From Arcobacter nitrofigilis DSM 7299 (GTDB lineage: Bacteria; Campylobacterota; Campylobacteria; Campylobacterales; Arcobacteraceae), in assembly GCF_000092245.1 (NCBI RefSeq), contig NC_014166.1, positions 1,922,001 to 1,986,000 on the forward strand: DNA of 64,000 nt. Reading direction: 5' to 3'. The translations under genes were made by a program, and so were the position numbers. Below are positions 21,996 through 26,259 of this stretch, piece after piece (position 1 is the first letter of the stretch; each line of letters opens with the position of its first letter). The notes under the pieces were generated by a model that was not told the DNA's origin, ran no database searches, and saw only the letters and a program-made list of their open reading frames with translations.

Positions 21996-23345
21996 ATGAA
22001 TAAACTACTTGTATTATTGTTAATAACTTCCATATACTCTTTTGCAAAAGAGATAACATTTGATGAAGCATTACATTTATTGCTTAAAAATAATAAACAA
22101 CTAAAATCTAAAAAACTAGATATAAAACAATCACATGCAATACTAGATGAAATATCTGCAAATAATTATGGGGCTTTAAATTTCAAAGAGACATATACAA
22201 CTACAAATCATGCAGGATATGCTTTTAATTCAAAACTAAGTTCTAGAAAAGCTACCTTTGGTGATTTTGGATTAGGTTCATATACAGGTCCTGGTTCTAT
22301 TGGAGAGGCACCAGATGATTTAAATTATCCAAAATCTACAGAGAACTATGAAACAAAGATTACTTATGATATTCCATTATTTACAGGTTTTAAAATATCA
22401 AATGCAAAAGATGTTGCTCAACTTCAAGTTCAAGCTAAAAATAAAAAATATCAATATGATGAAAAACTTTTAACTTTAGAATTATTAAGAGCTTATAATG
22501 CTTGTGTTGCAGCTAAAGAGTACTTAAAATCTACACAAAAAGCAAAAGAAGTAACTAAATCTTTTGTAAATTTTTCAAATGAAATGTTCAAAGAAGGATT
22601 AGTTACAAAAATTGATTTAAATGAAGCACAAGTGAGAGATTTAAATACTAATGTAAAACTAAAAGAAGCGCAAAATAAAGTATCACTTGCTCTTTCTTAT
22701 TTAAGTTTTTTAGTTGGTGATGAAATTACAGATGTTAAAAACTTTGAAGAGGTAAAACTTTCAAATCTTGTTCTAAAAAATATTCAAGAAGAGGCTATAA
22801 ATAAAAGGGAAGACTATAAATATATTGATTTAAATGTTAAATCATCAAAGAAAAATATAAAAGTAGAACAAGCTGATTATTATCCTAAAATTAATGCGCA
22901 TGTAGAATATGGATATAGTGATGATAAATTAAAGAATTTTGATGATACCCAAGATTTCTATCTAGCAAAAGTACAATTAAATATGAAAATATTTGATATG
23001 ACAAGAGAAGCTAAAGTAGAACAAAGTAGAATCAATTACAATAAATTGATGTTAGAAAAAGAACAGTTTAAAGATTCTATTAAACTTGAAGTAAAACAAA
23101 ACTATTTAAATTATTTATCAAATGAAGAAATTTTAGTAGAAAAAATTAAAGCTCAAAATTTAGCAGAAGAAGTTTTAATAAAAGCAGAAGATATGTATAA
23201 AAATAAATTATTAAAAATGACAGATTTATTAGCACAACAAGCTTCACTGCAAAAAGCAGAAGCAGAAGTAATTATGTCAAAATTTGATCTTACTTTTATG
23301 AAAGCAAAATTAAAGCTATCAATTGGAAAATCGTTGAAGGAATAA
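21996..23345 (+). CDS. TolC-family outer membrane efflux/export protein
   Basis: 449 residues. A signal peptide (about 1-17, ending SFAKE) precedes two outer-membrane-efflux-protein repeats made of long helices with short barrel strands, e.g. ITYDIPLFTGFKISNAKDV and EMFKEGLVTKIDLNEAQVRD. Such proteins form trimeric channels for RND pumps or type I secretion. No membrane-fusion or pump gene is adjacent. A TATAAT box at 21964-21969 lies about 27 bases before the start. It is separated by 142 bases and its own promoter region from the Slam-like pair, so a functional link is possible but not shown. Confidence 0.88.
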   Translation: MNKLLVLLLITSIYSFAKEITFDEALHLLLKNNKQLKSKKLDIKQSHAILDEISANNYGALNFKETYTTTNHAGYAFNSKLSSRKATFGDFGLGSYTGPGSIGEAPDDLNYPKSTENYETKITYDIPLFTGFKISNAKDVAQLQVQAKNKKYQYDEKLLTLELLRAYNACVAAKEYLKSTQKAKEVTKSFVNFSNEMFKEGLVTKIDLNEAQVRDLNTNVKLKEAQNKVSLALSYLSFLVGDEITDVKNFEEVKLSNLVLKNIQEEAINKREDYKYIDLNVKSSKKNIKVEQADYYPKINAHVEYGYSDDKLKNFDDTQDFYLAKVQLNMKIFDMTREAKVEQSRINYNKLMLEKEQFKDSIKLEVKQNYLNYLSNEEILVEKIKAQNLAEEVLIKAEDMYKNKLLKMTDLLAQQASLQKAEAEVIMSKFDLTFMKAKLKLSIGKSLKE

Positions 23346-23436: not shown

Positions 23437-23451
23437 TTAAGTATTACTTAA
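23437..23451 (+). promoter_or_regulatory. perfect palindrome, candidate operator of the Slam-like operon
   Basis: TTAAGTA-T-TACTTAA is a perfect 15-base inverted repeat that ends right at the TATAAT box (23453-23458) in front of the Slam-like gene. Its position between the -35 and -10 regions is typical of a repressor site. The regulator is unknown. Confidence 0.55.
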
Positions 23452-23452
23452 A

Positions 23453-23458
23453 TATAAT
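23453..23458 (+). promoter_or_regulatory. -10 box of the Slam-like/FecR operon
   Basis: TATAAT 30 bases before the ATG at 23488. The -35 region is poor (TTTAAT near 23430), which fits a regulated promoter. Confidence 0.5.
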
Positions 23459-23487
23459 AAATGAATATTATATAAAAAAGATACCTA

Positions 23488-24804
23488 ATGATAAAAAAAA
23501 TACTATTGGTAACTACTTTTACTCTCTCTATTGTTTTTGCTTCTGAAAGCTTAACCTCATATGAGCAAGCAGTAAAACTGTTTAATGAAAAGAGTTATGA
23601 GAAAGCTTACAAAATATTTCTTTCTTTATCAAAAAATGATTTGGAAAACCAAAATCTAAACTTCTATCTTGGAAGATGTGAATATGAACAAGGAAAATAT
23701 GATATAGCAATAAGTTATTATGAGAGAATACTTTTTGCTCAACCAAATAATTTAAGAGCTCAAATAGAAATAGCCCAAAGTAACTTGATGCTTAAAAACT
23801 ATACTCAAGCAATAAAAGACTTTAATGTTGTTTTAGTAAATGCAGATACTCCAGCTGATGTAAAAAAAAGTATTGAAGAAAGACTGGCTTACATAAAAAA
23901 AACTATGCAAAAACACTTTATAAGTGGAGCTTTAGTATTTGATTTAAGTTATGATTCAAATGTAAATAACTCAGCAACAGCAGGTGAGTACTCAGTCTTT
24001 GTACCCCAATTGGGAACTGATTTTAAATTATCAAATAATGCAAAAGAAGAATCAGATTACTATTATGATGCCATTGCTGTTATAAATCATGTATATAAAT
24101 ATAATGAAAACTTCTCTTTAAATAATAGCCTTGTAGCTTATACTCAAGATTATCATACTAAAAAAGATAGTAATATTGATGTTATCTCATTTACTTCCAC
24201 TCCTACTTTTTATGAAGGGGCAAATAAATATGGCACTGGACTTGGAATTGATTATGTTAGATACAATGATAAAGACTATTTAAAAAACTATAATCTAATA
24301 TTTTCAAACTCTCATATTTTTGCACAAACAACTTTAAATAATATTACTTTTAAACTAAGTAAAAAACTCTATGACCAAGAAGAAGATAAACAAAAAAGTG
24401 CTTATGTATTTGATTTAACAAATAGCTTAAAATATAAAACAGAAAACTTTGGACTTTTTACTTTAGATACTGCATATAGCAAAGAAATAGAAATATATGA
24501 ACAAAGAACAGATGTAAGTAAAGAATCATTTGAAGTAGGTTTAGAAAATAGTTTAGCTTTACCATATAAATTTAATCTAAACACAAATATAAATAGTAAA
24601 AAAGTAATCTATAGAGATACGGATGTTAACTTTCTATCTAGAAGAGTTGATAAGATAAATAGTGTCTCACTTGGAATAAGTAGACCATTAAGAAAAAACT
24701 TAATCTTTGCCTTAAAAGGAACAGCTACAAACAATATGTCAAATCAAGCACCCTTTGATTATAAAAAACAAGTTATTAAATCTTCATTGATTTATACATT
24801 TTAA
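23488..24804 (+). CDS. Slam-like outer membrane protein: periplasmic TPRs plus DUF560/SlipAM-type barrel
   Basis: 438 residues. A signal peptide (about 1-18, ending VFASE) is followed by TPR helices (about 24-140, e.g. YLGRCEYEQGKYDIAISYYE). From about residue 148 alternating strands form a beta-barrel of ~290 residues that ends in a terminal Phe (SSLIYTF), the outer-membrane insertion signal. The first strand reads GALVFDLSYDSNVNNSATAG, close to the DSNVN motif of Slam (DUF560) translocons, and total size and order match Slam, which delivers TbpB-like proteins across the outer membrane. The next gene, nine bases later, encodes a protein with a TbpB-like C-terminal domain. The Slam assignment is from motif and context and needs a profile search. 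Confidence 0.68.
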   Translation: MIKKILLVTTFTLSIVFASESLTSYEQAVKLFNEKSYEKAYKIFLSLSKNDLENQNLNFYLGRCEYEQGKYDIAISYYERILFAQPNNLRAQIEIAQSNLMLKNYTQAIKDFNVVLVNADTPADVKKSIEERLAYIKKTMQKHFISGALVFDLSYDSNVNNSATAGEYSVFVPQLGTDFKLSNNAKEESDYYYDAIAVINHVYKYNENFSLNNSLVAYTQDYHTKKDSNIDVISFTSTPTFYEGANKYGTGLGIDYVRYNDKDYLKNYNLIFSNSHIFAQTTLNNITFKLSKKLYDQEEDKQKSAYVFDLTNSLKYKTENFGLFTLDTAYSKEIEIYEQRTDVSKESFEVGLENSLALPYKFNLNTNINSKKVIYRDTDVNFLSRRVDKINSVSLGISRPLRKNLIFALKGTATNNMSNQAPFDYKKQVIKSSLIYTF

Positions 24805-24813
24805 GGATTTAAC

Positions 24814-26259
24814 ATGAAAAAGATACTCTTATTACTTTTTATCCTTGCAAACTTTTTATTTGCTAGTATAGGACAAATAACAGCCTTAGTTGGTGATATT
24901 AAGATATCTAGGGATTCTAAAACTATCATAGCTAAACTTGGAGAAAAATTAGAAAAGAATGATGTTATAAATTCTTCAAAAGGTTCTAAAGCTCAAATTA
25001 CCATGAATGATAATACTATTATTACCATTGGGCAAAATTCTACTTTAAATATCTTTGATTATGTTTATGATGAGAGTAAACCAAAAGATTCTAAGGCTAG
25101 TTTTGGGTTTATGAAAGGCTCTTTTAAATCTATTACTGGGAAAATTGGAAAGTTAAATAAAAATAGGTTTAAGCTAAGAACTAAAAGTGCTTCTATCGGT
25201 ATTAGAGGAACTACTATTATTGGGAATCAACAAATCATTATTTGTACTGATGGAGCTATTAGTGTTACTGCTAATGGAGTAACTGTAGATGTGGCAAAAC
25301 AAGAGTTAACTAGAATTTCACAAGATGGTACTCCAACTCCTCCTGAGCCTTTAAAACAAGACACTTTAGAAAAATTAGAACAATTAGCAGATACTAGTAA
25401 TACTACAACACCACAAAAGAATGAAAGTAAAGAAGAAAAAAATATTTCTCCTGAAACACCTACAGTTGTAAATAATACTCCAAATAATGATCCTGTTAAA
25501 TATGAACTTCCTACTGTGAGATATAAGAAAAAAGAACATTCTAACTTATCTGGCTTTACTACTTTAGGATATGCAAATACAATAATTAAAGATAGTAATA
25601 ATAATGATGCATTTGAATCTTTCAAAAATGGTGAAATGGGAATAAAGGGATTTGATTCTTCTATCACGCAAGGGACAATAGGTAACTCTTCTCGAATAAA
25701 TATTGACAACAATAAAGTCCTTGATTCCACATTAAAAAATGGAACTACTATTGGAACATTTTCTGATGAAAATGAAACATACTTATCATGGGGAGAATGG
25801 CAGGGAACATCTCAAAATAATATAACCTATACTGGAGGATGGATTGCAGGAACAAAAACTGCAGGGAGTATTATACTTGACTTAATTGGTGGACTAACTA
25901 CTAGTAAAACATTTACGGGTAATGTTATACATGGAGACATATTTGATGGAAATACGCTATATGATATATCTGATCAAAGTACTGTAAATTTTACATTTAA
26001 TTTTGGTGGAGGAAATAATTCTTTTACAGGAAATATGAACTTATTATATAATGAAGGCTCAGAATACAAAATCAACTTTAATAATGGAGCTGTAAATTCT
26101 TCTGGTTTTTCTTCATCTGATTTAAAACATGGAGGAAACAGTATAACGGGAAATATAAATGGTTCATTTTATGGAAGTGGAGAAATTAAAGCAATAGGTG
26201 GTAAATTTGACTTTAAAGATGGAGTAATAGAAGGAAGTGGTTTATTTAAAGCTCAATAA
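24814..26259 (+). CDS. FecR-domain protein with TbpB-like barrel domain, putative Slam client
   Basis: 481 residues. Signal peptide without lipobox (ANFLFASIGQ), so a soluble exported protein. A FecR domain (about 20-150) shows ALVGDIKISRDSK, GDIKIS-type strands and the RTKSASIGIRGTTII end. A Thr/Asn/Pro linker (about 180-240) follows. The C-terminal ~240 residues are Gly/Asn/Ser-rich strands with YLSWGEWQG, GGWIAGTKT, and finally ITGNINGSFYGSGEIKAIGG, which fits the G-x-F-[FY]-G-x-x-A/E-x-x-GG pattern of TbpB barrel domains. It is co-transcribed with the Slam-like gene. The FecR domain suggests envelope binding; secretion to the surface is inferred. Confidence 0.68.
   Translation: MKKILLLLFILANFLFASIGQITALVGDIKISRDSKTIIAKLGEKLEKNDVINSSKGSKAQITMNDNTIITIGQNSTLNIFDYVYDESKPKDSKASFGFMKGSFKSITGKIGKLNKNRFKLRTKSASIGIRGTTIIGNQQIIICTDGAISVTANGVTVDVAKQELTRISQDGTPTPPEPLKQDTLEKLEQLADTSNTTTPQKNESKEEKNISPETPTVVNNTPNNDPVKYELPTVRYKKKEHSNLSGFTTLGYANTIIKDSNNNDAFESFKNGEMGIKGFDSSITQGTIGNSSRINIDNNKVLDSTLKNGTTIGTFSDENETYLSWGEWQGTSQNNITYTGGWIAGTKTAGSIILDLIGGLTTSKTFTGNVIHGDIFDGNTLYDISDQSTVNFTFNFGGGNNSFTGNMNLLYNEGSEYKINFNNGAVNSSGFSSSDLKHGGNSITGNINGSFYGSGEIKAIGGKFDFKDGVIEGSGLFKAQ

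Follow-up and report, generated by a model that had tools for sequence, protein, structure and literature searches.

A Slam-like barrel gene and its neighbour in Arcobacter nitrofigilis

The window analyzed here is a stretch of 64,000 nucleotides from Arcobacter nitrofigilis DSM 7299 (NC_014166.1, positions 1,922,001 to 1,986,000, forward strand), and our subject is a pair of adjacent genes within it that encode a putative Slam-family outer-membrane protein and its predicted client. Both genes are on the + strand. The first (23488..24804) encodes 438 residues with a signal peptide, a TPR domain and a 14-strand beta-barrel; the second (24814..26259) encodes 481 residues with a FecR domain, a spacer and a TbpB-type barrel. 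The 9-bp gap between the stop of one and the start of the other (24805..24813) is consistent with one transcript. A sequence-only reading of this region had described the pair as a Slam-like translocon with a FecR-bearing cargo protein. Its observation is confirmed and its interpretation largely holds, with the gene beginning at the ATG at 23488 and not at 23437, a position that lies upstream of it. On each of the three points that it had named as able to refute it, the result was favourable: the model of the barrel has 14 long strands, the client C-terminus falls in the TbpB barrel family, and the two genes are conserved as a pair.

The barrel protein has the layout expected of a Slam. A signal peptide, judged by inspection (MIKKILLVTTFTLSIVFA; 23488..23541), precedes TPR helices at residues 24-140 that are expected to be periplasmic (23557..23907), and these are followed by a barrel at residues 143-437 (23914..24798) that contains the YDSNVNN motif and ends in Phe (...YTF). 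In the AlphaFold model, which was built with 52 relatives in the alignment and has a predicted local distance difference test (pLDDT) score of 94.5, helices extend to residue 140, and 14 long strands and a short hairpin (166-183) occupy residues 143-437. The solved barrels that align most closely are CymA (Z 22.5) and OmpG (Z 21.8), both 14-strand barrels. Profile searches matched TPR_16 at 4.1e-12 and TPR_Slam at 2.7e-4, the latter under the cut-off. We assign the protein to the Slam family because its relatives exceed the cut-off of the Slam barrel profile, SlipAM, as is the case in 16 of 100 related genomes. Two copies in one of these (G035) share 33-35% identity with the window barrel over nearly the full length and both exceed the cut-off; SlipAM hits (best 1.6e-14) occur in 14 of the 52 aligned relatives and TPR_Slam hits in 30. 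Built from barrels of the window type, a profile also recovers, at 2e-70, the full-length SlipAM protein (2.3e-25) of another campylobacterotal locus (L200, 7606-12430), a clear Slam that is accompanied by a 1165-aa VWA-TbpB client. Slams have been described as two TPRs followed by a predicted 14-strand barrel (PMC7857515; PMC5449769). By homology and model, the product of 23488-24804 is thus a Slam-family protein, and its movement of the client to the cell surface is a prediction.

The client begins with a signal peptide of the signal peptidase I (SPI) type, recognized by inspection (24814..24864; MKKILLLLFILANFLFA|SIGQ). As noted from the sequence, it has no lipobox, and residues 1-35 are free of Cys. 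The mature N-terminus is a FecR domain at residues 20-180 (24871..25353; PF04773, E 1.6e-10), followed by a low-complexity T/P/N/E-rich spacer at residues 181-310 (25354..25743) that is predicted to be disordered (pLDDT <50 at 197-298 and 300-310). Residues 311-481 (25744..26256; GSFYGSGEIKAIGGKFDF...GLFKAQ) form a handle and a TbpB-type beta-barrel, the predicted export-recognition and surface part. The AlphaFold model has the same order, with FecR at about 20-180, disorder at 197-310 and then the handle and barrel, and its C-terminus aligns with the TbpB C-lobe (5kkx, Z 15.7) and the NHBA C-domain (Z 14.8). A PDB search with the single client sequence returned nothing useful, and a plasmid search with it found no match. 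The TbpB-type assignment was made because relatives exceed the TbpB_B_D cut-off (19 of 100) and because the family profile of the C-terminal region (A5, which includes the window protein) matches TbpB in the PDB at 2.1e-17, its best hit, as well as LbpB, NHBA (GNA2132), hemophilin and fHbp. In the 38 aligned clients, TbpB_B_D was found in 20, and the NCBIfam model "Slam-dependent surface lipoprotein" likewise in 20 (best 3.9e-15). Given that neither the window client nor any other client combining FecR and a TbpB-type domain has a lipobox, we do not class the protein as a surface lipoprotein.

Conservation of the pair and its linkage to CHASE2 cyclases

Throughout the related genomes collected first, each barrel homologue has a FecR client next to it in the same orientation, and therefore the pairing is far beyond chance. 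We also scanned 84,980 species genomes with a FecR-domain alignment and retained the 80 best among 278 relatives, our sole source for the range outside Campylobacterota; these 80 come almost entirely from Campylobacterota, the one clear exception being Thiomicrospira (L170). Pooling gave 127 distinct FecR proteins, of which 80 carry a TbpB-type domain, and no lipobox was found in any of the 80. A barrel gene lies within 1 kb of 56 of the 63 clients with complete flanks, at a median distance of 9 bp in 71 pairs (-30 to 60 bp in 66 of them). Clients end with the TbpB domain or shortly after it (median of 0 residues past the domain), and the spacer that separates it from FecR varies from 27 to 2640 residues (median 169) and can hold coiled-coil-like and Ala/Glu repeats, C-GYTG-YPNC repeats or an Ig/cadherin domain. 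The FecR-bearing client with its barrel is standard in Campylobacterota, so that what had appeared to be an unusual cargo is rather the rule there. No TonB receptor is encoded in the immediate neighbourhood, as the sequence-only reading had stated. Apparent FecR-less clients at L197, L199, L211, L213, L201, L218 and L120 are likely frameshifts or truncated contigs and were left uncounted.

Some loci depart from the usual form of the pair. A client of 2991 aa (L081, 6397-15372) has a repetitive, coiled-coil-like spacer of roughly 2600 residues; a Pfam HGD-D match in it was taken as spurious. At L161/L212, L173/L222, L211 and L197 the barrel or the client is broken into two open reading frames, which could reflect phase variation, decay or assembly error. 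Promoter-like sites in the window region were not more frequent than in shuffled sequence.

Many of the pairs are accompanied by a third gene that was not visible from the window. Of the 63 clients with complete flanks, 39 have a CHASE2 nucleotide-cyclase gene no more than 1.5 kb from the pair, and 8 of 12 short proteins consisting of FecR only have one within that distance. Pfam identified CHASE2 and class III cyclase domains in the neighbour genes scanned. The wider locus usually includes a CHASE2 cyclase. From the number of CHASE2 genes in the window genome (three in 3.19 Mb), we estimate the probability of such adjacency by chance at well under 1%. That genome encodes a related orphan CHASE2 cyclase about 106 kb from the pair (C1:2052180-2054372; L233, 7181-9373). 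It falls within the pair-linked CHASE2 clade (Shimodaira-Hasegawa-like approximate likelihood ratio test support of 98, 19 rows), where 17 rows have an adjacent FecR client and barrel, and the remaining two are the orphan and a duplicate record of one of these loci. Since the orphan branches inside this clade and is present in both congeners, also distant from the pair, the module seems to be dispersed in the window genome and not lost.

The same genome carries a second copy of the pair (G000:C1:3166963-3169770; L078, 6964-9786). Its barrel is 94% identical to that of the window, with 0.07-0.13 synonymous substitutions per synonymous site (dS), and its FecR domain is 91% identical (dS 0.22); the linker and TbpB domain share only 43-46% identity (dS about 0.8). 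This abrupt rise in dS, located near residue 180, points to replacement of the surface part by exchange rather than to selection acting alone. The TolC-family gene directly upstream of the window pair (21996-23345) was dropped as a candidate partner, because the second copy is preceded by a response-regulator-like gene and not by TolC.

TbpB-type domains also covary with their neighbours. Over the 71 pairs, distances between these domains correlate with those of the adjacent TPR (rho 0.50) and barrel (rho 0.42) more than with those of the FecR domain in the same protein (rho 0.24). Bootstrap intervals of the two differences exclude zero (0.11-0.42 and 0.02-0.32), and the partial correlation between TbpB and FecR is 0.00 (-0.16 to 0.15). 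Shared ancestry is still in these data, and we therefore treat the covariation as supporting evidence only.

The FecR domain and the proposed topology

The FecR fold of the client matches the signalling domain of PupR (6ovk, Z 14.9) and a "cell surface anchoring domain" (5ix9; root-mean-square deviation 1.2 over 62 columns, TM 0.75 by target length); the latter is also the best PDB match of the FecR sequence profile (9e-4). The domain is therefore of the kind that anti-sigma regulators have in the periplasm, as recognized by PF04773 and by the PupR structure. The cytoplasmic anti-sigma domain and the membrane helix that would precede it in such regulators are absent, and the signal peptide directly precedes FecR. 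Natural variants offer further evidence. Eleven of the FecR-only loci fall in one barrel clade, at whose base a long-FecR locus branches, and the twelfth (L186) is separate, inside a TbpB-client group, which indicates that the set of FecR, barrel and cyclase persists without the TbpB domain. Elsewhere (L198, 3394-6329), a barrel of the same family adjoins a client that has a lipobox, an OmpA domain (7.2e-14) and a TbpB-type C-terminus, and lacks FecR. OmpA domains bind peptidoglycan. The fold matches, the FecR-only loci and the OmpA client fit a periplasmic N-terminus joined to an exported C-terminus, and FecR probably serves in the periplasm as an anchor or as a signalling terminus. It resembles a fixed end of the client more than a cargo on display.

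Two features of the FecR-only proteins were also recorded. In the clade of L176, L181, L188, L189, L191-L193 and other loci they are of 210-280 aa and are encoded between the barrel and the CHASE2 cyclase, and several of them share a similar terminal (D/E)RP or DRP motif.

We hypothesize, with a probability of roughly 60%, that the pair is a type XI secretion system (T11SS, Slam-family) translocon and its own non-lipidated client, with FecR as a periplasmic anchor and a CHASE2 cyclase as the readout. Both proteins would cross the inner membrane by Sec, after which the TPR/barrel protein would recognize the C-terminal TbpB-type domain of the client. This domain would then be threaded through the barrel and fold outside; a pull by folding has been proposed for Slam (PMC9090332). 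The N-terminal FecR domain would fold and stay in the periplasm as a stopper and docking end, such that the client spans the outer membrane via its disordered spacer and a protein anchor takes the place of the lipid one that ordinary Slam clients carry. The ancestral partner may be an inner-membrane CHASE2 class III nucleotide cyclase, with FecR as the likely link that reads out the state of the surface domain, and in the window genome this partner would be the cyclase encoded at C1:2052180-2054372. Of this scheme, the families, the order of the domains, the conserved linkage and the association with CHASE2 come from the computation, and export, topology, anchoring and signalling are predictions. 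We read the system as a T11SS variant that builds a trans-outer-membrane tether or sensor, and the recurrence of the pair across Campylobacterota, usually beside a cyclase gene, points to a receptor or adhesin that spans the outer membrane. A bolder and more tentative version, which we favour less than its negation, is that the pair is a phylum-wide trans-envelope sensor: Slam would thread a receptor or adhesin halfway, and binding or pull at the surface would make the periplasmic FecR domain switch the CHASE2 cyclase.

Several observations weigh against the anchored-client hypothesis. In the profile searches, the window barrel by itself has no SlipAM match, and in the Pfam profile search the window client by itself has no TbpB_B_D match; the two family assignments made from the sequence are thus upheld by relatives, family profile and fold, and not by the window proteins alone. 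Neither the window pair nor its close relatives have an adjacent CHASE2 gene. The VWA-TbpB client at L200 has neither FecR nor a lipobox, which shows that some clients of this kind do without such anchors. Only a single OmpA client was observed, the covariation of TbpB with TPR and barrel is confounded by shared ancestry, and FecR could equally be carried to the surface. In Sinorhizobium meliloti, the FecR protein SMc02177 was dispensable for signal perception upstream of CHASE2 cyclases (PMC5498481), and we found no experiment on any of the proteins considered here in the open-licence literature.

Ordinary non-lipidated T11SS export, in which the whole client including FecR is released or displayed outside in the manner of hemophilin, would make FecR a passenger and the CHASE2 linkage regulatory or historical. 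Non-lipidated Slam substrates are known (PMC7857515), the SPI signal peptide and missing lipobox of the FecR clients suit such a route, and so does the L200 client with neither FecR nor lipobox. We nevertheless regard this as rather unlikely, given that FecR is retained without the TbpB part beside barrel and cyclase and resembles the cell-surface anchoring domain of an adhesin. FecR domains of known function are, to our knowledge, periplasmic. It is improbable that the barrel is instead a receptor similar to the S. meliloti protein NsrA, with the FecR-TbpB protein held in the periplasm to relay a signal to CHASE2: the CHASE2 linkage, the FecR-only clade and the NsrA precedent would be explained, but the C-terminal domain of the client belongs to a Slam-exported family and covaries with TPR and barrel, and stalk-like spacers as long as 2640 residues would be hard to account for within the periplasm.

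Two further possibilities can be given very little weight. The barrel might be a channel for polysaccharides or nutrients, of the same type as BcsC/PelB or the porins, with a coincidental neighbour, and its best Foldseek matches do include BcsC, FadL, CymA and OmpG. Such matches are expected, because no solved Slam structure is among the fold-search hits, an absence that proves nothing; a PDB sequence search with the barrel returned TPR proteins only, and the SlipAM matches in relatives and the near-universal pairing with a TbpB-type client speak against a channel. Least credible of all is a LapA-like type 1 secreted adhesin exported via the upstream TolC-family gene, since the match to the LapA retention module is weak (2.4e-6, 27.8 bits, below the cut-off of 50) and is set against a Sec signal peptide, a FecR and linker region in which reading the sequence revealed no LapG-type di-alanine (AA-G) site, and a second copy with no TolC gene upstream.

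Relation to known secretion and signalling systems

The pair shares with the Slam/T11SS systems of TbpB, LbpB, fHbp, NHBA and hemophilin a TPR and 14-strand barrel protein encoded beside a client with a handle and an 8-strand barrel, and exported substrates of those systems may also be non-lipidated. It differs in the FecR domain at the mature N-terminus, the absent lipobox, the long and variable spacer, the lack of a nearby TonB receptor and the frequency of a CHASE2 cyclase as third gene. The 2017 survey of Slam neighbourhoods omitted epsilonproteobacteria (PMC5449769), a gap that the pair fills, and two T11SS surveys mention neither FecR nor Arcobacter nor Campylobacter. The pair also points to a means by which a Slam client could be kept at the surface without a lipid. 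Through its natural variants (FecR only, OmpA with lipobox, VWA, and the duplicated pair with a diverged C-terminus), the contribution of each part can be tested.

In FecR/PupR signalling, where a TonB-dependent transducer, a FecR anti-sigma factor and FecI act together, the FecR fold is shared and is predicted to be periplasmic in both cases. Here, in contrast, a signal peptide replaces the cytoplasmic anti-sigma domain and membrane helix, FecR is fused to a predicted exported domain, and the partner barrel is of Slam type and not a TonB-dependent transducer. The retention modules of LapA and MpAFP likewise combine an N-terminal anchoring domain of similar fold (5ix9) with a long stalk, and retention in an outer-membrane pore is a possible further likeness. 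They differ in using type 1 secretion, whereas a Sec and Slam route is predicted for the client, and in the LapG-type site and above-cut-off retention-profile match that the client lacks.

The closest parallels to the CHASE2 linkage are operons in which a FecR gene adjoins a CHASE2 sensor enzyme, namely the Burkholderia BiofilmReg locus (LysM-FecR with a CHASE2 kinase) and S. meliloti, where SMc02177 adjoins the CHASE2 cyclase gene cyaD1, as judged by locus number. The outer-membrane barrel NsrA of S. meliloti, which acts upstream of CHASE2 cyclases, provides a precedent for the involvement of a barrel (PMC13001267). Unlike the client, FecR in these operons is not fused to a TbpB-type domain, and, as noted above, the S. 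meliloti FecR protein is dispensable for perception. The BiofilmReg paper does not mention "barrel", "outer membrane" or "TPR". Slams, T11SS cargo and FecR-CHASE2 operons are known separately, and in open-licence papers we did not find a Slam translocon, FecR and a CHASE2 cyclase described together. The pair offers the poorly understood CHASE2 sensors a testable candidate for a periplasmic partner.

Two other loci in the window's genome bring FecR and CHASE2 together. At L235, 1541-7595 (G000:C1, about 1227541-1233595), a two-partner secretion exoprotein gene is followed by genes for a FecR protein and a CHASE2-GGDEF protein, so that FecR and CHASE2 there adjoin a second kind of secreted surface protein. 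At L234, 7201-9941, a short FecR-like protein is encoded divergently from another CHASE2 gene.

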